A DNA stretch of 33,365 bases from Myxococcales bacterium (GTDB taxonomy: Bacteria; Myxococcota_A; Polyangia; Polyangiales; Polyangiaceae). Shown here piece after piece: positions 23,095 through 31,007 of the stretch (its first letter is position 1; each line of letters begins with the position of its first letter). The notes beneath the pieces are model-generated. The model saw nothing but the letters and a program-made list of their open reading frames with translations, was not told where the DNA came from and did no database searches. The stretch spans positions 22,958-56,322 of the forward strand of contig JAGQJA010000143.1 of NCBI GenBank assembly GCA_020430845.1, given 5' to 3'. The position numbers and the translations under genes are program-made.

Positions 23095-25458
23095 ATGGAC
23101 ACCCTCGCGATCATCAGCAAGGCGCAGTTCGACGGGGCGCATCGAGGGGCGGCGCCGGGCAGCGTGCTCGCGATCGACCGGTACATCAGCAGAGTGCCCG
23201 CCCTGCGCTCGCTCGAGCAAGGCGGCGCGCTCTTTCTCGTCACCGTGAGACCCGGCGATGTCCTGTGGCTCGTGGGCGTGCTCGAGACTCCGGCGTTCGA
23301 CGGGGACATGTGGGCCGGGCCGCCGAACACGACCCCGGTCGCCGACATCACGCATCTTCGAGGCGAGCTGCGCTTCGACAGCGGCAAGGGGCTCGTCGCC
23401 GCGCCCGGCAAGCTGGGCATGAGCTTGCAGACGCCGCGCGTGCTCGCGGAGAGCGACGTCACGCTCCTGCGCGCCGCGATCGGCGCGACGCCGCCAGCCG
23501 CTCCGGAACGCCGACCCGCAGCGCAACCCGCGAAGAAGAAGGCGGCGCGCTCGACCGCGGCGCCCGCACGGCGCCCGCGCGCGAAAGCCGCGGCGGTCGC
23601 GGCCCCCGCCGAGGTCCGTCGCGCCCCACAGAAGGGCGCGAAGACGAACGAAGGGACCTGGAGCCCACCGACGCTCGACGGACTCGGCGCGTGGCTCGAC
23701 CCGACGCTGCCCACGAGCCCGGCCGGCGGGCCCGCAGACCTCGAGGCGCAGCTGCGGAGCTCGGTCGACGACCTCGACGCGCGGCGCGTGCTCGCAGACG
23801 CCCTCCTCGAAGCCGGAGACCCGCGCGGCATGTACATGCAGCTGGCGGTCGAGCACGATGGGACGCCGTCGTGGGACCCCGCGCGCGAACGGCCAGCGCA
23901 ACAGCTCGCGAGCTTCGAGGCGCGCTACGGGATGAAGTGGTCGGAGCCGCTGCGTGGCGTGGGGGGCCTCGGCAAGCTCGCGCGGGACGAGACCCGCGCC
24001 CAGTTCGCGTTCCGGCGTGGAGCCATCGAGCTCTTGCGCGGAGACGCCCAGCGCATCGTCGCGCAGCTCGAAGCTGCGCAGGACGTCGCGCCGATCTGCG
24101 GGCTCGAGCTGAAGGCGGTGACCCCCGCCGCGCTGGCGGCGCTCACCGCCACGCGCGCGCTCTCGCGCATCCGGCGTCTCGACCTCGACTTGTCGCCCCA
24201 CCAAGACCAGACGAAGGCGCTGGCCGCGCTCTTCGCGTCGCCTCACCTGGGCGCGCTCACGCACCTCGGCATCGACGACGTGAGCGACGTCGAAGAAGTG
24301 ATGACGACGTTGGCGACGGCGGACGCGCTCGGCAACCTCCGGTCGTTGTCGCTCCGTTTGCCTGAGCTCGACCGAGCGAGCGTCGAGGCGCTGGGCCGGG
24401 CGCCCTGGGCCGCATCGCTCGAAGAGCTCGATCTGCGAATCACTGGCGATCTCGGCGAGCTCGGCCCGCTCGGGTCGCTGCCCGCGCTCGCACGCCTGCG
24501 CGTCACCGGAGAGCGCGCACCTGAGGCGATCTCGGCCTTGGCGGGGCGCACGGCCGGCACGCTGCGCGAGCTGTCGATCGAGGGCGGACAAGCTACGCCG
24601 CGGCAGCTCGCCGACCTCGGCAGCGCCGCGTTCGCGGGCCTCCGCGTGCTCCGCCTCGAAGGGATCGGGCTCAACGCCGCCAAGCTCGCGCGAGCGCTCG
24701 GCAGCTGGGAGCTCGCCGAGCTATGGCACCTCGACCTGGGTGGCAGCGCGCTGCGTGAGGCCGGAGCCGCGGCGCTCGCCGCCTCCCCCCTCATGGCAAC
24801 GCTGGAGCGGCTCGACGTCGGAGCTGCGCGACTCGGTGACGCGGGCGCGGCAGCGCTGGCCAAGGGGGTGGCGCCGCGCCTCAGGCGCATCAGCCTCGCG
24901 CACAACGCGCTGGGCGAGGCGGGCCTCGCGGCGCTCGCCGAGGGGCCGCTGCTCGCGCACGTCGAGCACGTCGATCTGCGGAACAACAAGTGTCACAACG
25001 CAGGCGGCCTCGCGTTCGCGGCGCTGCCCACGCTGCCGCGCGTCAAGCACCTGGCGCTCCACTACAATTGGATGGGCGTCCACGGGCTCCGCGCCATCTT
25101 GCAGCGCATGGAAGACGCCGAGGAGCTGCACCTCGACGAGAACAACTACGGTGTGGAGCCCGTGCGTGCGCTGGCCGCCTCGACCACGATCCGCAACCTG
25201 CGCGTCTTGTCGACGCGCGAGGCCGACGCCAAGTGGCTCGCCGCGTTCGCGTCTTCGCCCGCAGCCTCCCGCCTCGAGCAGCTCTCCCTCAGCAGCAGCG
25301 CCCTCGACGACGCGTCGGTCGACGCTCTTCTGGCGCTCCCCGCCCTCGGCTCGATCCACCTGACCTTCTGCTTCCACCTCTCGGAGCCCGCGCGCCAGCG
25401 TTTGTCTGCGCGATTCGGCCCCATGCTCACGTTCTGGCCACCGGAGAATGGAGCCTGA
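23095..25458 (+). CDS. Leucine-rich-repeat protein with TIGR02996-like segment
   Basis: A 787-residue cytoplasmic protein with no signal. Residues 1-125 form a conserved N-terminal module ([34 protein letters not shown]) of unknown role, possibly PUA-like. A basic Ala/Pro/Lys linker (about 130-190) follows. Residues about 218-255 ([21 protein letters not shown]) match the TIGR02996 repeat-companion domain of myxobacteria. The rest is about 15 degenerate leucine-rich repeats ([43 protein letters not shown]). This layout suggests protein binding. The gene reads straight into acr3 with a possible 11-bp overlap. Confidence 0.8.
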
Positions 25459-26569
25459 CATCCGCATGACACACGCCACGGCTGGCCTCATGGGCAAGCT
25501 CTCGTTCCTCGATCGGTACCTGACGCTGTGGATTTTCCTCGCGATGGGTCTGGGCGTCGCCTTGGGCGCGCTCGCGCCCGGCTTCAACACGGCCCTGAGC
25601 AAGTTGAGCGTCGGGACGACGTCGATCCCGATCGCCATCGGGCTCGTCACGATGATGTACCCGCCGCTGGCCAAGGTCCGCTACGAGGAGCTGGGCAAGG
25701 TCTTCCGTGACAAGCGCGTGCTCGCGTTGTCGCTCGTGCAGAACTGGATCGTCGGACCGCTGCTCATGTTCGGGCTCGCCGTCCTCTTCTTGCGCGACAA
25801 GCCCGAGTACATGCTCGGCCTCGTCCTCATCGGCCTCGCGCGCTGCATCGCGATGGTGATCGTGTGGAACGACTTGGCCAAGGGCGACACGGAGTACTGC
25901 GCCGGGCTTGTCGCGTTCAACTCCATCTTCCAGGTGCTCTTCTTCTCCGTCTACGCGTACTTCTTCGCCACGCTCCTGCCCACGTGGCTCGGGCTCGCGG
26001 GCGCGGCCGTCCACGTCTCGATCGGGGACATCGCGCAGAGCGTCGCGATCTATCTCGGCGTCCCGTTCGCGGCGGGCTTCTTGACACGCCGCGTGCTCGT
26101 GCGCGCGAAGGGGCGCGCCTGGTACGAGAAGAGCTTCGTCCCTCGGGTCGGGCCGATCACCCTCGTCTCACTCCTCTTCACCATCGTCGTGATGTTCTCG
26201 CTCAAGGGCGAGACCATCGTGCAGCTCCCGCTCGACGTGCTGCGCATCGCCGCGCCGCTGCTCGTCTACTTCGTCGTGATGTTCGCCGTCTCGTTCTTCA
26301 TGAGCAAACGCGTCGGCGCCGACTACAAACGTTCGGCCACGCTGTCGTTCACGGCGGCGTCGAACAACTTCGAGCTCGCCATCGCCGTCGCGATCGCGAG
26401 CTTCGGCATCCACAGCGGCGCGGCGTTCGCGGCCGTCGTCGGCCCGCTCGTCGAGGTCCCGGTGCTCATCGGACTGGTGAACGTCGCCTTGTGGGCTCAG
26501 CGACGCTTCTTTCCCGACACGCCTCTCGACGTCGCCCCCGCAGCCTGCGCCACCGAGGCGGAGGGCTGA
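25448..26569 (+). CDS. acr3: Arsenite efflux transporter, Acr3 family
   Basis: A 373-residue membrane protein with ten predicted helices that exports arsenite (As(OH)3) using the proton motive force. It shows the conserved Cys133 in [10 protein letters not shown] and the late [11 protein letters not shown] block with the essential Glu. The ATG at 25448 overlaps the end of the LRR gene; the ATG at 25466 gives a slightly shorter N-terminus with no overlap and cannot be excluded. arsC follows 5 bp after its stop, so the two are one operon. No ArsR repressor gene is visible nearby. Confidence 0.93.
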
Positions 26570-26574
26570 GCACG

Positions 26575-27012
26575 ATGCGCACCGACGAGACCATCCTCTT
26601 CCTCTGCGTCGCCAACTCTGCCCGCAGTCAGATGGCCGAGGGGTTGGCGCGCAAGCTCTTCGGCGCGCGCGTGCCCGTGATGAGCGCCGGGAGCGAGCCT
26701 TCGCACGTGAGCCCCTACGCGGTCGAGGTGATGGCCGAGGTGGGCGTCGACCTCTCGACGCACCGCTCCAAGTCGGTCGAGGGCATCGACCCGAGCCAGG
26801 TGGGCACCGTCATCACGCTCTGCGCCGAAGAGGTCTGCCCGGTCTTCCTCGGCGCAGCGCGCAGACTGCACTGGCCGCTCCCCGATCCCGCGAGCAAGGA
26901 CCCGACGCTAGCGCGCGACGAGATGCTCGCGCGCTTCAGGGCGGCGCGAGACGAGATCCAGCGCCGCCTCGAGGCGTTCGCCGCGCAGATGGGCTCGACC
27001 GAGGCCGGCTGA
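26575..27012 (+). CDS. arsC: Arsenate reductase (low-molecular-weight phosphatase family)
   Basis: A 145-residue cytoplasmic enzyme reducing arsenate to arsenite for export by Acr3. The phosphatase-like loop C11-V-A-N-S-A-R17 is intact, with the general acid Asp104 in PLPDP. A second pair of Cys, C83 and C88 in [10 protein letters not shown], is as expected for the relay Cys of this fold; whether thioredoxin or another reductant acts is not readable. Its start is 5 bp after the acr3 stop. It is convergent with the CLC-F gene and shares a hairpin with it. Confidence 0.92.
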
Positions 27013-27042
27013 CGCGGGAGACGCGGACGGGTCACCGCGTCA
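27010..27042. terminator. Inverted repeat between arsC and the CLC-F gene
   Basis: TGACGCGG (27010-27017, starting with the arsC stop) pairs with CCGCGTCA (27035-27042) over a 17-nt loop, a perfect 8-bp stem. The right arm lies in the last codons of the CLC-F gene. No T-run is present; function is inferred from its place between convergent genes. Confidence 0.45.
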
Positions 27043-28339
27043 TGGGCTCTTCGTCGTCCGCGGGAGGCGGCGTGCGGCGCGGCGACGTCGACAGGGGCAA
27101 CACGTCGCGCAGCGCGATCGGCCCCGCGAGCGGCCCGCCGTCCTTACCGTGGAGCAGGCGCTGCGCCGAGTAGATGCTCCGGTGTCCCGTCATCAAGTAG
27201 GCGAGCACGCACACGATCACGACGTGCGGGAGCACCTCCGCGCCGAGCAGCTCGACCGCCATGATCGACAGCGCGAGCGGCGTGTTGGACGAAGCGGCGA
27301 AGACGGCGGCGAGCCCGACGCCCGCGCCGAGCTCGATCGGCAGGCCCAAGACGCGCGCGAGCACGTTGCCGAGGGCCGCCCCGACGAAGAAGAGCGGCGT
27401 GACCTCGCCGCCGAGAAAGCCTGCCGCCAGCGTGACCGCCGTGAAGAGCAGCTTTGCCGCGAACGCGTAGCTGGGGAGCGCCGGATCGCCGAAGGCGCGC
27501 ACGATCGTGGGCACGCCGAGCCCCAGGTAGTCGCTCGTGCCCATGACCTTCCACGCGACGACGACCGTCGCGCCACCGATGAACATGCGCAGCGGCAGCC
27601 GCGAGACGCGCTTCTCTCCCTGCTTCTTGAGGAAATGCGTCAGCTCGATGAACGCCGTCGTCGCGAGCGCGATCGCCGCGGCGAAGACGACCCACTTGGC
27701 GAGGAGGAGCGGCGTGAGCGGCACGTGCGGGGACGCGGGGTAGTGCGTGTGACCGATGCCGAGCGCGCGCGTCGTCATGTCCCCGACGATCGACGCGACC
27801 AGCGCGGGGACGAGCGCGCGGTACTCGATGCGGCCCAGCACGATGAACTCGAGACCGAACACGGCGCCCGCGATCGGCGTGCCGAACACGGAGCCGAAGC
27901 CGCCGGCGACCCCCGCCGCGAGCAGCTGGCGCCGCATGGGACCCGCGAGCTGCAGGCGGTGCGAGACCCAGTCGGTGAGGCTGGCGCCCATCTGCACCGC
28001 TGTGCCCTCGCGACCGGCGCTGCCGCCGAAGAGGTGTGTGAGCACCGTGCCTGCGAGCACCATCGGCGCCATCCGGAGCGGGATCTCGGGCCCCTCGTCG
28101 TGGATCGTGTCGATGACGAGGTTGTTGCCGCCCTTGATGGACTGCCCGAAGCGCTCGTAGATGGCGCCGATCACGAGCCCCGCCACGGGCAGCGTGTAGA
28201 CGATGACCTCGTGGCTGCCGCGGAACGAGGTCGCGAGCTCGAGCAGCCACAAGAAGAGCGCCGAGCCCGCACCGCAGAGGACGCCGACGAGCGCGCCGAG
28301 CGCCACCCACTGCGCGAGCGCGCGTGTGCGTTGCCTCAT
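27032..28339 (-). CDS. CLC-F type fluoride/proton antiporter
   Basis: A 435-residue CLC-family membrane protein. The gating glutamate E111 lies in SAGREGTAVQMG, the form of the GREGT...QMG motif seen in CLC-F proteins. The Cl-coordinating GSGIP loop of chloride CLCs is replaced by KGGNNLV (residues 69-75), the known CLC-F feature. The C-terminus is a soluble Pro-rich tail. CLC-F proteins expel fluoride in exchange for protons. The strongest support is upstream: a fluoride-riboswitch-like aptamer lies in the 5' leader. Automatic pipelines may label it a chloride channel. The ATG at 28339 sits 2 nt after a UUCG hairpin. Confidence 0.85.
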   Translation of the reverse strand: MRQRTRALAQWVALGALVGVLCGAGSALFLWLLELATSFRGSHEVIVYTLPVAGLVIGAIYERFGQSIKGGNNLVIDTIHDEGPEIPLRMAPMVLAGTVLTHLFGGSAGREGTAVQMGASLTDWVSHRLQLAGPMRRQLLAAGVAGGFGSVFGTPIAGAVFGLEFIVLGRIEYRALVPALVASIVGDMTTRALGIGHTHYPASPHVPLTPLLLAKWVVFAAAIALATTAFIELTHFLKKQGEKRVSRLPLRMFIGGATVVVAWKVMGTSDYLGLGVPTIVRAFGDPALPSYAFAAKLLFTAVTLAAGFLGGEVTPLFFVGAALGNVLARVLGLPIELGAGVGLAAVFAASSNTPLALSIMAVELLGAEVLPHVVIVCVLAYLMTGHRSIYSAQRLLHGKDGGPLAGPIALRDVLPLSTSPRRTPPPADDEEPMTR

Positions 28340-28341
28340 GG

Positions 28342-28372
28342 CCGCCCGAAGGCGGTTGCCGCGTGGACCGCC
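28342..28372 (-). promoter_or_regulatory. Two mutually exclusive hairpins before the CLC-F start (possible expression platform)
   Basis: On the minus strand CCGCC-TTCG-GGCGG (28355 to 28342) forms a very stable UUCG hairpin ending 2 nt before the ATG. Its left arm is shared with a second possible stem, GGCGGT (28372-28367) with ACCGCC (28356-28351). Only one can form at a time, as in translation-controlling riboswitches. No purine-rich ribosome site is obvious here. Confidence 0.4.
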
Positions 28373-28467
28373 CGCCGCGTGTCGCGCTCTCTTCGATGTC
28401 TCACGAGTCCCTCCGCTCTCTCTGGGGCCGGGGCTCGAGTGAATCCCACGGCGCCGTCATGGCTGTG

Positions 28468-28535
28468 CCGTAGGAGTCATTGGCCGTGCTCTCTCTCGGT
28501 GAGCGCGGCGGGTGTCGGCGGACTCCACCGCCATC
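28468..28535 (-). ncRNA. Fluoride riboswitch aptamer (crcB motif)
   Basis: On the minus strand, GGCGGTGGAGTCCGCC (28532-28517) is stem P1 with its loop. Stem GCC...GGC encloses a second hairpin GCTC...GAGC (28504-28488). Then comes AATGACTCCTAC (28481-28470). Loop GGAGT pairs with ACTCC to make the pseudoknot, as in known fluoride aptamers. Compared with the well-studied aptamer (recalled from memory), the loop A6 is G and the partner U38 is C, which would replace the reversed A-U tertiary pair by G-C. The leader then runs about 130 nt to the CLC-F start. Confidence 0.78.
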
Positions 28536-28542
28536 GCGTTCT

Positions 28543-28571
28543 AGCGTGCCTGCCCGACCGCCGACTGTCAA
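28543..28571 (-). promoter_or_regulatory. Housekeeping-type promoter for the riboswitch and CLC-F gene
   Basis: A perfect -35 box TTGACA (28571-28566) is followed after 17 bp by CACGCT (28548-28543), a weak -10. The predicted start near 28536 is at the 5' edge of the riboswitch aptamer, which supports the pairing of promoter and aptamer. Confidence 0.45.
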
Positions 28572-28631
28572 CGGCGCGTCCCGCGGGCGTCGGGCTCGCG
28601 ACTGGTGCTCGGTGCGCGGAGCAAGACGCGT

Positions 28632-28664
28632 GTGCGCGCACGCGACCGGCACGTGCGCGCACGC
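28632..28664 (+). promoter_or_regulatory. Two identical dyads 21 bp apart, candidate enhancer-binding sites
   Basis: GTGCGCGCACGC occurs at 28632-28643 and 28653-28664; each contains the perfect 10-bp palindrome GTGCGCGCAC. The 21-bp period equals two helical turns. They lie about 109 and 130 bp upstream of the predicted start of the sigma-54 promoter at 28741, where enhancer-binding proteins usually bind. The remainder of the 28340-28813 gap shows only an AT-rich stretch at 28688-28717. Confidence 0.55.
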
Positions 28665-28740
28665 CCGGAGGGCGCATGCCGCGAGCCGTAAAATACTGCA
28701 ATTTCATGATCTTACGTGACCGCCCGCCGTCCGAGAGGGC

Positions 28741-28756
28741 TGGCAAGCACCTTGCT
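28741..28756 (+). promoter_or_regulatory. Sigma-54 (RpoN) promoter of the PEGA-like lipoprotein gene
   Basis: TGGCAAGCACCTTGCT matches the consensus TGGCACGNNNNTTGCW at all but one base. GG (28742-28743) and GC (28754-28755) are 10 bp apart. The predicted start near 28767 leaves a leader of about 47 nt, with GGAG 10 bases before the ATG at 28814. Confidence 0.7.
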
Positions 28757-28813
28757 CTACGGACCTCCCGATGGGCGGCGCGGGTCGCCCCGCAACCTTG
28801 GAGCAAGACGACG

Positions 28814-29452
28814 ATGATCAAGCGGACGGCGAGTGTGCTCGGCATTTCCCTCTCTCTCATGGCGTGCGCCGTGGCGCCCGCGCCTGCGGCCGAGCTGGAC
28901 GACGGACCGAGCGGCGCGGCCCGCCCGTCCGCGCTCGTCGACGCGCTGGGCGGCACGGACGACGCGACGGCGCCGACGGAGGGGGCCGACGCGATCGACG
29001 TCGGCAGCTCCTTCCGCATGCAGTTTCCGTCCGGACGCGTGTACGCGTACGCGAGCACGGGTGACACGTGCGCGTGGACGGTGAACGGCACCGCGAAGGG
29101 GACGTCGACGGTGCTCGACATGGCGCTCCTCGTCGGGACCTACGAGGTCGCGTGCAGGCGCGCCGACGGGGTGAGCGCGAGCAAGAGCGTCAGCATCACC
29201 GCGAGCACGACGACGACGGCGGTGATGACGTTCCCGCTGCCCGACGGCACGCTCCTGATGGCGGCCTCGGGCGGCACGTGCTGGTTCTACGTGAACGGCG
29301 CGCCGAAGGGCGGCGCGACGAGCTCGCTCCAGCTGTCGCTCAAGCCCGGCGCCTATACCGCGAGCTGCAAGCCGACGAGCGGCGCCGCGACGGTGTCGAA
29401 GTCCGTCCTCGTCCACTCGGGGGCCACGTCGATGGCGATGTTCAAGCTGTGA
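28814..29452 (+). CDS. Predicted lipoprotein with two PEGA-like repeats
   Basis: A 212-residue envelope protein. The signal and lipobox are SLSLMAC (Cys18). After an Ala/Asp-rich stretch two similar modules occur: GDTCAWTVNGTAKGTSTVL with VGTYEVACRRADG, and GGTCWFYVNGAPKGGATSS with PGAYTASCKPTSG. Each has two Cys and the VNG..KG and (V/P)G.Y pattern of PEGA domains, small beta folds common in myxobacterial surface proteins. The gene has its own sigma-54 promoter and a ribosome site GGAG. Function is not known; regulation by an enhancer-binding protein suggests a signal-dependent envelope role. Confidence 0.75.
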   Translation: MIKRTASVLGISLSLMACAVAPAPAAELDDGPSGAARPSALVDALGGTDDATAPTEGADAIDVGSSFRMQFPSGRVYAYASTGDTCAWTVNGTAKGTSTVLDMALLVGTYEVACRRADGVSASKSVSITASTTTTAVMTFPLPDGTLLMAASGGTCWFYVNGAPKGGATSSLQLSLKPGAYTASCKPTSGAATVSKSVLVHSGATSMAMFKL

Positions 29453-29465
29453 TCTCGCGCGGCGC

Positions 29466-29471
29466 TATACT
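29466..29471 (+). promoter_or_regulatory. -10 box TATACT six bases before the ATG at 29478
   Basis: TATACT is close to the ideal -10 and is followed by exactly six bases and ATG. A weak -35 (TTCAAG, 29441-29446) lies 19 bp upstream. Leaderless transcription is inferred. Confidence 0.5.
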
Positions 29472-29477
29472 GCGCCC

Positions 29478-31007
29478 ATGAGAGCTGCTGTCTTCGTCGT
29501 CGCCACCGGCGCGGCGGCCATCGCCGCGTTCGCCGCGTGCTCTTCGGACGACGACGCCGGCGCGCGCCCTGGGGACGACGCCGGCACACCGCCGACGCCC
29601 GACGCGCAGCCGCCGACCGACGCAGGGCCGCCGGACGCGTCGAGCGCGCCGCCGGTGTTCTTCAAGAGCGGGTCGCGGCTTGCGATCGAGGCCGTGCGCG
29701 CGGCGGACGGACAGAAGTTCTTCCGGCGCTTCTTCGACAAGCAGCTCGGAACGCCGTGCGATCTGTTCCGGACGTCGACGACCACGGCGCTCTGCGTCCC
29801 GCCCTCGGCGTCGCTCGTCTACGCCGACGCAACGTGCGCGACGCGCGCCGCGATCGCCCCCTCGGCGTGCTCGAAGGGCGTGAAGTACGTCGCCGAGTAC
29901 GCGTACGAGTGCGGCGCCATCAAGTCCGTCGTCGTGTCTCCGCTCGGAGCCGCCCTCCCCGGCACCACGTACTACGACAAGTCGCCGACCTGCACGCCGA
30001 ACGCCGCTTCGCCGGGAGAGATCCTCTCCGTGGGCGCGCCGCTCGCCGCAAACGCGCTCGTGTCCTTCACGCTCCAGACCGAGCCTGGGTCGGCTGAGCT
30101 CGGGAGGCAACGGTGGGTCGGGAGCGACGGCACGGAGCAAGTCGACGAGGGCGAGCTCTTCGACGTGAAGAAGAACCAACCGTGTCAGGGCGCCAGCGTG
30201 GGTCTCGCCTCGATCGGAGGCGCCGCGACGCGGTGTATTCCTCGACGGATCGCGGTGCATCGCGGCGGGGGCGACGGGCCGTTCACCGACGCGACGTGCA
30301 CGACGCCCGCGGCGGACTACGGGCTCTCGAGCGCCTGCCCGACGCCGCAGGTCGCGCTCGAGCGCGCGCTTCGTCCGGACTCGGGCACCTGCACCAACAA
30401 CTTCTACTTTGCGCTGCACGACGTGGGCGCCCAGGTGACCACGCGCTACCTCTCGCAGGGCGCCAACTGCAACCCCGACACTTCGACCTCGCGGTCGGCG
30501 TGGGTGCTCGGCGCTGCGCTCCCAGAGGCGACGTTCCCCGCCGTCGCGATCACCGACTTCGGCGTGGGGCGCGTGCGCGCGCGCGGCCTCGCGTCGAACG
30601 GCACGCGCCTCTCCAACGGGACGCTCTTCGACACCGTGGCGGGGGCGGCGTGCTCCGAGCAGAAGGTCGGCAACGCCTACTATTGCGTCGCGGGCACGGT
30701 GTCGGCCGACACCGATCTCTTCTCGGACGCGGCGTGCACGATGCCCATCGTGCTCGGCCCGACGTCGTGTACGGCGTACCAGCCGCCCCAGCCGTACGCC
30801 GCGGTGCGGACGGCGCTCGACGCGAACGGCTGTGACAGCGTGATCACAGAGATGCACCCGCTCACGCCGGTCCTCGGGCTCGCGCAGATCTACCGCAAGA
30901 ACGGCGCGCTCTGCGAGGTAGAGGCGTTCTCGGGCAAGGCACTCGCGGTCGGCCCCGTGGTCGATGCGTCGACGCTCTTCGAGACGGTCACGCTCGTCAC
31001 CGAGTAG
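29478..31007 (+). CDS. Predicted lipoprotein with three cysteine-rich modules
   Basis: A 509-residue protein with lipobox AFAAC (Cys21) and an Asp/Pro-rich linker (22-58). The rest reads as three modules of roughly 150 residues. Each has a FFD/LFD turn then a Cys (TPCDLF, NQPCQG, AACSEQ), a middle Cys (ALCVPP, TRCIPR, YYCVAG), the block (Y/F)xDAxC (YADATC, FTDATC, FSDAAC) and a later segment with a further Cys (KSPTCTP, GANCNPD, GALCEVE). The family is not recognised. It starts with a leaderless-type box and overlaps the last 11 bp of the convergent membrane-protein gene. Confidence 0.7.
   Translation: MRAAVFVVATGAAAIAAFAACSSDDDAGARPGDDAGTPPTPDAQPPTDAGPPDASSAPPVFFKSGSRLAIEAVRAADGQKFFRRFFDKQLGTPCDLFRTSTTTALCVPPSASLVYADATCATRAAIAPSACSKGVKYVAEYAYECGAIKSVVVSPLGAALPGTTYYDKSPTCTPNAASPGEILSVGAPLAANALVSFTLQTEPGSAELGRQRWVGSDGTEQVDEGELFDVKKNQPCQGASVGLASIGGAATRCIPRRIAVHRGGGDGPFTDATCTTPAADYGLSSACPTPQVALERALRPDSGTCTNNFYFALHDVGAQVTTRYLSQGANCNPDTSTSRSAWVLGAALPEATFPAVAITDFGVGRVRARGLASNGTRLSNGTLFDTVAGAACSEQKVGNAYYCVAGTVSADTDLFSDAACTMPIVLGPTSCTAYQPPQPYAAVRTALDANGCDSVITEMHPLTPVLGLAQIYRKNGALCEVEAFSGKALAVGPVVDASTLFETVTLVTE

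Follow-up and report, generated by a model that had tools for sequence, protein, structure and literature searches.

A fluoride riboswitch aptamer before a CLC-F antiporter gene of a Polyangiaceae genome, with a candidate relay of pairings and a candidate leader reading frame

CLC-F fluoride/proton antiporters under riboswitch control were reportedly described by Stockbridge et al. in PNAS in 2012. According to the part of PMC11139923 available to us, such proteins carry the signatures GNNLI or GMGLI, GREGT/V and GEVTP, about 30% of CLC-F genes stand under a fluoride riboswitch, and CLC-F and Fluc are near-exclusive of each other. The accessible text of PMC13273304 states that stem P4, the terminator stem of transcriptional fluoride riboswitches, shares nucleotides with the pseudoknot. 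A further arrangement is known from ppe2 of M. tuberculosis, where, in the available portion of PMC11260477, a B12 riboswitch controls a leader ORF with an AUGA overlap, and termination-reinitiation was established by experiment.

The locus described here lies in the window, i.e. the whole stretch of 33,365 nucleotides that was analysed, taken from a Myxococcales bacterium of the Polyangiaceae. The association of a fluoride riboswitch with CLC-F is already published and the present case belongs to it: aptamer class, gene and signature motifs are those of the published systems (as far as the available part of PMC11139923 describes them), whereas the host is a member of the Polyangiaceae and a leader ORF lies between aptamer and gene. 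Like the fluoride riboswitches of Pseudomonas syringae and Burkholderia pseudomallei, for which translational control is presumed in PMC13273304 (accessible text), the locus shows no intrinsic terminator; that text on the two riboswitches does not mention an X:Y pairing or a leader ORF, whereas the window has candidates for both.

Identity of the aptamer and the antiporter

The elements on which the identification depends are the following.

27032..28339, minus strand: CLC-F type fluoride/proton antiporter, 435 aa, ATG start (Pfam, PDB search, published signatures, tree)
28464..28541, minus strand: fluoride riboswitch aptamer, RF01734 (Rfam match 34.5 bits, gathering 34, E 4.5e-6)
28522..28526, minus strand: loop strand GGAGT of the pseudoknot (sequence and Rfam alignment)
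28566..28571, minus strand: TTGACA, a -35 box candidate that begins 30 bases ahead of the aptamer, with a weak -10 CACGCT 17 bases further

On the minus strand the TTGACA box (28571-28566) is followed by the aptamer (28541-28464), the leader and the 435-codon gene (28339-27032). The aptamer was the sole match at the gathering threshold in a cmscan search of the whole window, and the single RF01734 match across the whole 8.56 Mb assembly. It covers positions 1-64 of the 64 in the model and is thus not truncated, at a score only 0.5 bit above the cut-off (34.5 versus 34). P1 (GGCG..CGCC), the inner stem and both pseudoknot strands are present, the loop GGAGT at 28526-28522 and ACTCC at 28477-28473 being placed by the sequence together with the Rfam alignment. 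The loop and the strand ATGACTCCTAC are both exact, and the arrangement recurs in relatives. The aptamer ends 124 bases before the ATG of the CLC-F gene, a fluoride-related gene on the same strand. The earlier note had read this leader as a fluoride aptamer with an ACTCC:GGAGT pseudoknot and had proposed the RF01734 search as its test; the match above the gathering cut-off, with P1 and both strands in place, leaves that reading standing. The promoter candidate TTGACA/CACGCT is weak, at least one such match occurring in 27 of 100 shuffles, and a stricter scan of positions 26400-29500 found no sigma-70 site.

The protein is labelled PF00654 Voltage_CLC by Pfam, and NCBIfam ranks "ClcB-like voltage-gated chloride channel" first, at 110 bits and far under the cut-off of 482, so that the automatic label is indeed the voltage-gated chloride channel that had been foreseen. 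In the PDB search the entries 6D0J, 6D0K and 6D0N, all of one fluoride/proton antiporter, were returned with E-values of 9e-66 to 1e-64, while the best non-fluoride CLC (one entry) reached 9e-4, i.e. some 60 orders of magnitude weaker. The likeness to the Enterococcus casseliflavus CLC-F (6D0J) extends over residues 13-395 and includes GREGx and GEVTP; the two proteins differ in having GMNLV and GREGV in E. casseliflavus against GNNLV and GREGT in the window. The proposal that GREGT and KGGNNLV take the place of the chloride-type GSGIP was correct as to the presence of both motifs (KGGNNLV at residues 69-75, GREGT at 109-113), but only GNNLV (71-75) occupies the GSGIP site, whereas GREGT replaces GREGP. 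The selectivity stretch varies among the CLC-F rows of our tree (e.g. GSNL, GTNL, GANV), and GEVTP, found at residues 311-315 of the window protein, occurs in all 21 of the CLC-F rows but in none of the 15 other CLCs.

In the tree of 36 rows, one branch with 100/100 support separates these 21 CLC-F proteins (the window protein and 6D0J included) from the 15 other CLCs. The window protein thus groups with CLC-F, away from the chloride CLCs, in the comparison that the earlier note had named as a possible refutation. The genome contains two CLC matches, and its own second CLC (L052), with GSGIP and GREGP, falls on the other side of the branch. Long branches lead to the E. casseliflavus row and to two of the 15 other CLCs, so that their exact positions are uncertain. 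No CrcB/Fluc match was found in the genome, in line with the near-exclusivity of Fluc and CLC-F given in the seen part of PMC11139923, an absence that is not proof because the assembly is 88.7% complete.

We therefore assign a probability of roughly 0.9 to the reading in which a CLC-F antiporter gene has an RF01734 aptamer in its leader and in which the gene product would be an exporter induced by fluoride, exchanging cytoplasmic fluoride for protons. An ordinary chloride CLC behind a leader that resembles a riboswitch by chance, a reading favoured by the Pfam and NCBIfam names and the thin Rfam margin, is very improbable given the 100/100 tree, the PDB ranking, all three CLC-F signatures and an aptamer match directly before CLC-F in nine other genomes (116 searched, own included). 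RNA and protein were said to point to fluoride independently, and the Rfam match, the CLC-F clade and the PDB ranking agree on it; the chloride-channel label is hence corrected to fluoride exporter by two independent lines.

Alternative pairings in the leader

Three short strands, designated P, X and Y, could form mutually exclusive pairings in the leader.

28467..28477, minus strand: strand P, made up of the pseudoknot's ACTCC followed by TACGGC, with the loop and X as its proposed alternative partners (Rfam, pairing tests)
28444..28452, minus strand: strand X, GCCGTGGGA, able to form 9 pairs with TCCTACGGC of P, one of them G-U (shuffles, alignment)
28427..28433, minus strand: strand Y, CCCCGGC, alternative partner of X (GCCG-U-GGG) (18-leader alignment; window alone p=0.186)

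The strand that closes the pseudoknot, P, reads ACTCCTACGGC, and nine of its bases are complementary to X downstream. The pairing P:X was calculated at -19.7 kcal/mol in the window; 300 shuffles of the 70 bases downstream gave -11.7 (sd 2.0), and none was as low. In relatives X is CGTAGGAG and similar. A value of p<0.05 was obtained in 15 of the 39 leaders scored; the set comprised 42, from which L064, L069 and L070 were left out because no P strand could be recognised at the positions taken for them. The leaders come from related loci, and p-values combined over them are not true probabilities. In an alignment made by sequence alone of 18 leaders, which were chosen as showing the pattern (L002 and L010, where the pattern is absent, being omitted), P:X was paired in 93.1% of cells and controls slid by 1 to 3 columns in at most 59.7%, percentages that lean towards the pattern because of this choice. 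P:X showed no two-sided changes in these 18 leaders, and such changes can hardly be expected since the aptamer nearly fixes P. The predicted P:X pairing is thus well supported in the window. By eye, the aptamer loop GAGTCC could also pair directly with GGACTC at 28410-28405; this candidate was dropped, as P:X recurs in relatives.

The second pairing, X:Y, has X in common with P:X, and the two are mutually exclusive. Y is CCTCCGGCGCC in many relatives and CCCCGGC in the window, where it is partly gapped in the alignment. In the same 18 chosen leaders X:Y was paired in 82.7% of cells and slid controls in at most 48.6%; the covariation score was matched by 7 of 500 shuffles and the percentage paired by 18 of 500, a yardstick that related sequences can exceed even without structure. 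Two-sided changes were seen in four cells (CG to UA twice, GC to AU twice), a count that 14 of 500 shuffles reach. The number of pairs with a two-sided change, 2 of 9, is not special, being reached by 173 of 500 shuffles and lying within the 0 to 3 of the slid versions. Tested leader by leader, X:Y gave p<0.05 in 13 of 20 chosen leaders, a hand-picked set (the 18 together with L002 and L010) with mostly CLC-F or crcB behind, in which the X of L064 is misplaced; the window, at p=0.186, is not significant. These sets count as a leader L008, where a 65-codon frame stands behind the aptamer. Taken together, the proposed X:Y pairing is supported across relatives, not in the window alone.

Ribosome access and the leader reading frame

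Downstream of Y the leader contains a possible ribosome site, a short reading frame and a hairpin.

28410..28414, minus strand: Shine-Dalgarno-like GGAGG, 5 bases before GTG 28404 (sequence)
28336..28404, minus strand: candidate leader ORF, GTG start, 22 codons, translation proposed (sequence)
28342..28355, minus strand: hairpin CCGCC-TTCG-GGCGG directly before the CLC-F ATG (sequence; drawn in folds of 28456-28320)

The GGAGG of the window falls within a few alignment columns of the corresponding sites in four relatives (L016, L059, L065 and L075). Several relatives have an anti-Shine-Dalgarno sequence, CTCC or CCTCC, within Y, after which come AGGAG or GGAGG and then a start codon. The openness of the ribosome site was calculated for 11 leaders, the subset of the chosen 18 with a nameable Shine-Dalgarno-like site after Y. 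Its mean was 0.20 with X held by P and 0.57 with X and Y mutually engaged, a rise that is partly built in because the site can only gain when Y is occupied elsewhere. The window went from 0.40 to 0.62 in the same comparison; as exceptions, L005 fell from 0.85 to 0.67 and L008 stayed at 0.25 to 0.26. With X merely free, the mean over the same 11 leaders was 0.26. Shorter folds of the window gave 0.40/0.78, 0.40/0.56 and 0.42/0.45 for X occupied/free with growing piece length, and in the whole-leader fold the openness of GGAGG was equal in both states (0.40 and 0.39). A further short-piece test gave 0.40 to 0.59 for the window and 0.20 to 0.30 for the mean of the 18 leaders, with a rise above 0.1 in six and a fall in one. 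From the X-free mean of only 0.26 and the lack of difference in the long window fold it follows that a relay of this kind would need to act during transcription.

These calculations and alignments suggest, with somewhat better than even odds, a fluoride-dependent switch among P, X and Y that opens GGAGG. Fluoride and magnesium would fill the aptamer and hold ACTCC in the pseudoknot with GGAGT; X (28452-28444), freed in this manner, would pair with Y (28433-28427), and the GGAGG at 28414 would stay open. Without fluoride, P would pair with X, the aptamer would be undone, and Y could mask the ribosome site.

A transcriptional mechanism, in which the P:X hairpin stops RNA polymerase directly or via Rho acting on an untranslated leader, with the leader ORF and Y incidental, appears unlikely, at rather less than one chance in two. 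Untranslated GC-rich leaders can be open to Rho as a matter of general knowledge, and this one might be. In addition, P:X corresponds to the P4 terminator stem in sharing pseudoknot nucleotides, as that stem is described in the available part of PMC13273304. Against this, no T run follows X in the window, and Y is conserved beside X. An intrinsic terminator in the leader was rejected, the terminator scan having found no site there; its two matches lie inside the coding region. Two relatives (L007 and L014) carry the Shine-Dalgarno sequence inside X, before an in-frame CLC-F start, a simpler arrangement that likewise argues for control of translation.

The start codon served by GGAGG in the window is GTG 28404, which is out of frame with CLC-F. 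The TGA of the candidate leader ORF (28338-28336) overlaps the CLC-F ATG at 28339 by four bases (ATGA), and its frame is also open from an earlier GTG (37 codons). By eye, no Shine-Dalgarno sequence is visible before the CLC-F ATG. It is quite conceivable, at slightly under even odds, that ribosomes enter at GTG 28404, translate the 22-codon leader and reinitiate on the overlapping ATG of CLC-F. The best support for such coupling is the analogy with ppe2, because the 4-base overlap is common anyway. The two loci share a riboswitch-led ORF and an AUGA overlap, and reinitiation is proposed for the window; ppe2, according to the seen part of PMC11260477, differs in being a B12 OFF switch with another aptamer and gene, and is experimental, whereas the window is read from sequence alone.

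The competing possibility is that the aptamer acts on translation via P:X and that CLC-F starts independently at ATG 28339 or at a non-standard start, the leader ORF being due to chance; it is a serious contender at appreciably less than an even chance. Open frames are frequent in the DNA of the window, and among the 21 CLC-F genes without an aptamer match before them 15 have a candidate ATG or GTG with A as the next base (16 if TTG is counted), several of these starts also having no evident Shine-Dalgarno sequence. The 4-base NTGA overlap was accordingly rejected as stand-alone evidence of coupling, being common without an aptamer too. What speaks against an independent start is that the frame of CLC-F offers no ATG, GTG or TTG upstream of ATG 28339 as far back as the preceding stop codon, and that GGAGG-GTG roughly coincides in the alignment with the ribosome sites and start codons of three genes in relatives: CLC-F in L016, crcB in L059 and a DUF190 gene in L075. 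The start at this place in L016 is the only in-frame candidate for its CLC-F. In L061, L065 and L073 an AGGAG-led short ORF has a 4-base overlap onto a candidate CLC-F start, L061 also having other candidate starts. No near relatives of the window's leader ORF were present among the loci compared. Short ORFs with 4-base overlaps that start in the aptamer (ATG 28480 and ATG 28460, by eye) were dropped as expected in GC-rich DNA.

Considered as a whole, a shared P/X/Y/Shine-Dalgarno relay, hitherto undescribed, in Myxococcota and some neighbours, with CLC-F in the window and some relatives reached only via leader-ORF reinitiation, is a tentative proposal. Neither such a relay nor a fluoride riboswitch acting on a leader ORF was met in the literature covered, which included the accessible parts of PMC13273304 and PMC11139923 and had most subscription papers and supplements outside its scope; this silence argues only weakly for novelty. 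The relay of alternative pairings, readable by comparison, is a possibly general wiring of fluoride riboswitches in Myxococcota. If the leader-ORF step is true, the fluoride riboswitch, like that of the B12 class (ppe2), would regulate a landing-pad ORF instead of the gene itself.

In L075 the ORF between the aptamer and CLC-F encodes a DUF190 protein (PF02641, E 1e-5, 26.1 bits, cut-off 23.4) and overlaps the CLC-F start by four bases. A shorter ORF resembling it, which has no Pfam match, lies at the same place in L006. Leader ORFs could be relics of such a first gene; the leader peptide of the window has no likeness to the DUF190 protein by eye.

Relatives, neighbouring genes and further aptamers

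Among 116 genomes (own included), searched with stricter filters so that weak matches were lost, an aptamer match was found in 16 and exceeded the cut-off in 14. A CLC-F protein match at E 1e-40 or better was present in 40 of the 116 (own included), and in 10 of these 40, again with the own genome, an aptamer match stands just before the CLC-F gene, the small ORF of L006 intervening in one of them. This proportion is near the roughly 30% given in the seen text of PMC11139923. In a sample of the phylum (377 genomes, own included) the aptamer was matched in 24 and lay over the cut-off in 19. The eleven best named protein relatives, with at least 64% identity, are records of Myxococcota or Deltaproteobacteria and one Planctomycetota MAG, and include Archangium, Polyangium, Hyalangium, Corallococcus and a "Polyangiaceae bacterium" (L079).

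Convergent with the CLC-F gene, 25448-27012 (plus strand) holds genes for an arsenite exporter, ACR3 (TIGR00832, 457 bits), and, after it, a protein of the low-molecular-weight phosphatase type (PF01451; ATG at 26575), probably an arsenate reductase. Apart from the window's own copies, ACR3 was found in three loci (L114, L124 and L128) and ArsC in one (L128) in a search of L022-L151 with flanks of 1.5-4 kb, some of which are aptamer loci without CLC-F. A functional link between CLC-F and the arsenic genes was rejected, as the neighbourhood is not conserved in these loci, and the rarity of ACR3 and ArsC beside them leads us to take it as chance. Also on the plus strand, 23095-25458 encodes a leucine-rich-repeat protein weakly resembling the STM4015 family (95 bits, cut-off 275), and 29478-31007 a DUF7481 protein (PF24297, E 4e-14), by eye a lipoprotein with a proline-rich linker.

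In one relative, G026 (loci L003, L017-L021 and L173; contigs C26, C53 and C247), the fluoride aptamer is matched six times, with five scores exceeding the cut-off and four of the aptamers lying inside 18 kb of contig C26. This genome is without a CLC-F match at E 1e-40. The genes behind its aptamers include an enolase (L017), crcB (L003), a Na+/H+ exchanger (L020) and a dynamin-like GTPase (L019, on C247). Judged from their arrangement, the aptamers of this genome form a predicted dispersed fluoride regulon. The 65-codon ORF after the aptamer of L008, the start of which is crcB-like by eye, gave no match in Pfam and may be what is left of a broken gene.

In five genomes of the phylum (L019, L055, L056, L057 and L066) a fluoride aptamer match stands upstream of a gene for a Dynamin_N-family GTPase, with Pfam E-values of 3e-30 to 1.5e-22 and, by eye, starts some 15-60 bases after the aptamer. 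A search combining "fluoride riboswitch" and "dynamin" found no paper in the literature covered. Metal-fluoride complexes are ligands of GTPases, and a dynamin-like protein as a fluoride-stress gene is worth a look.
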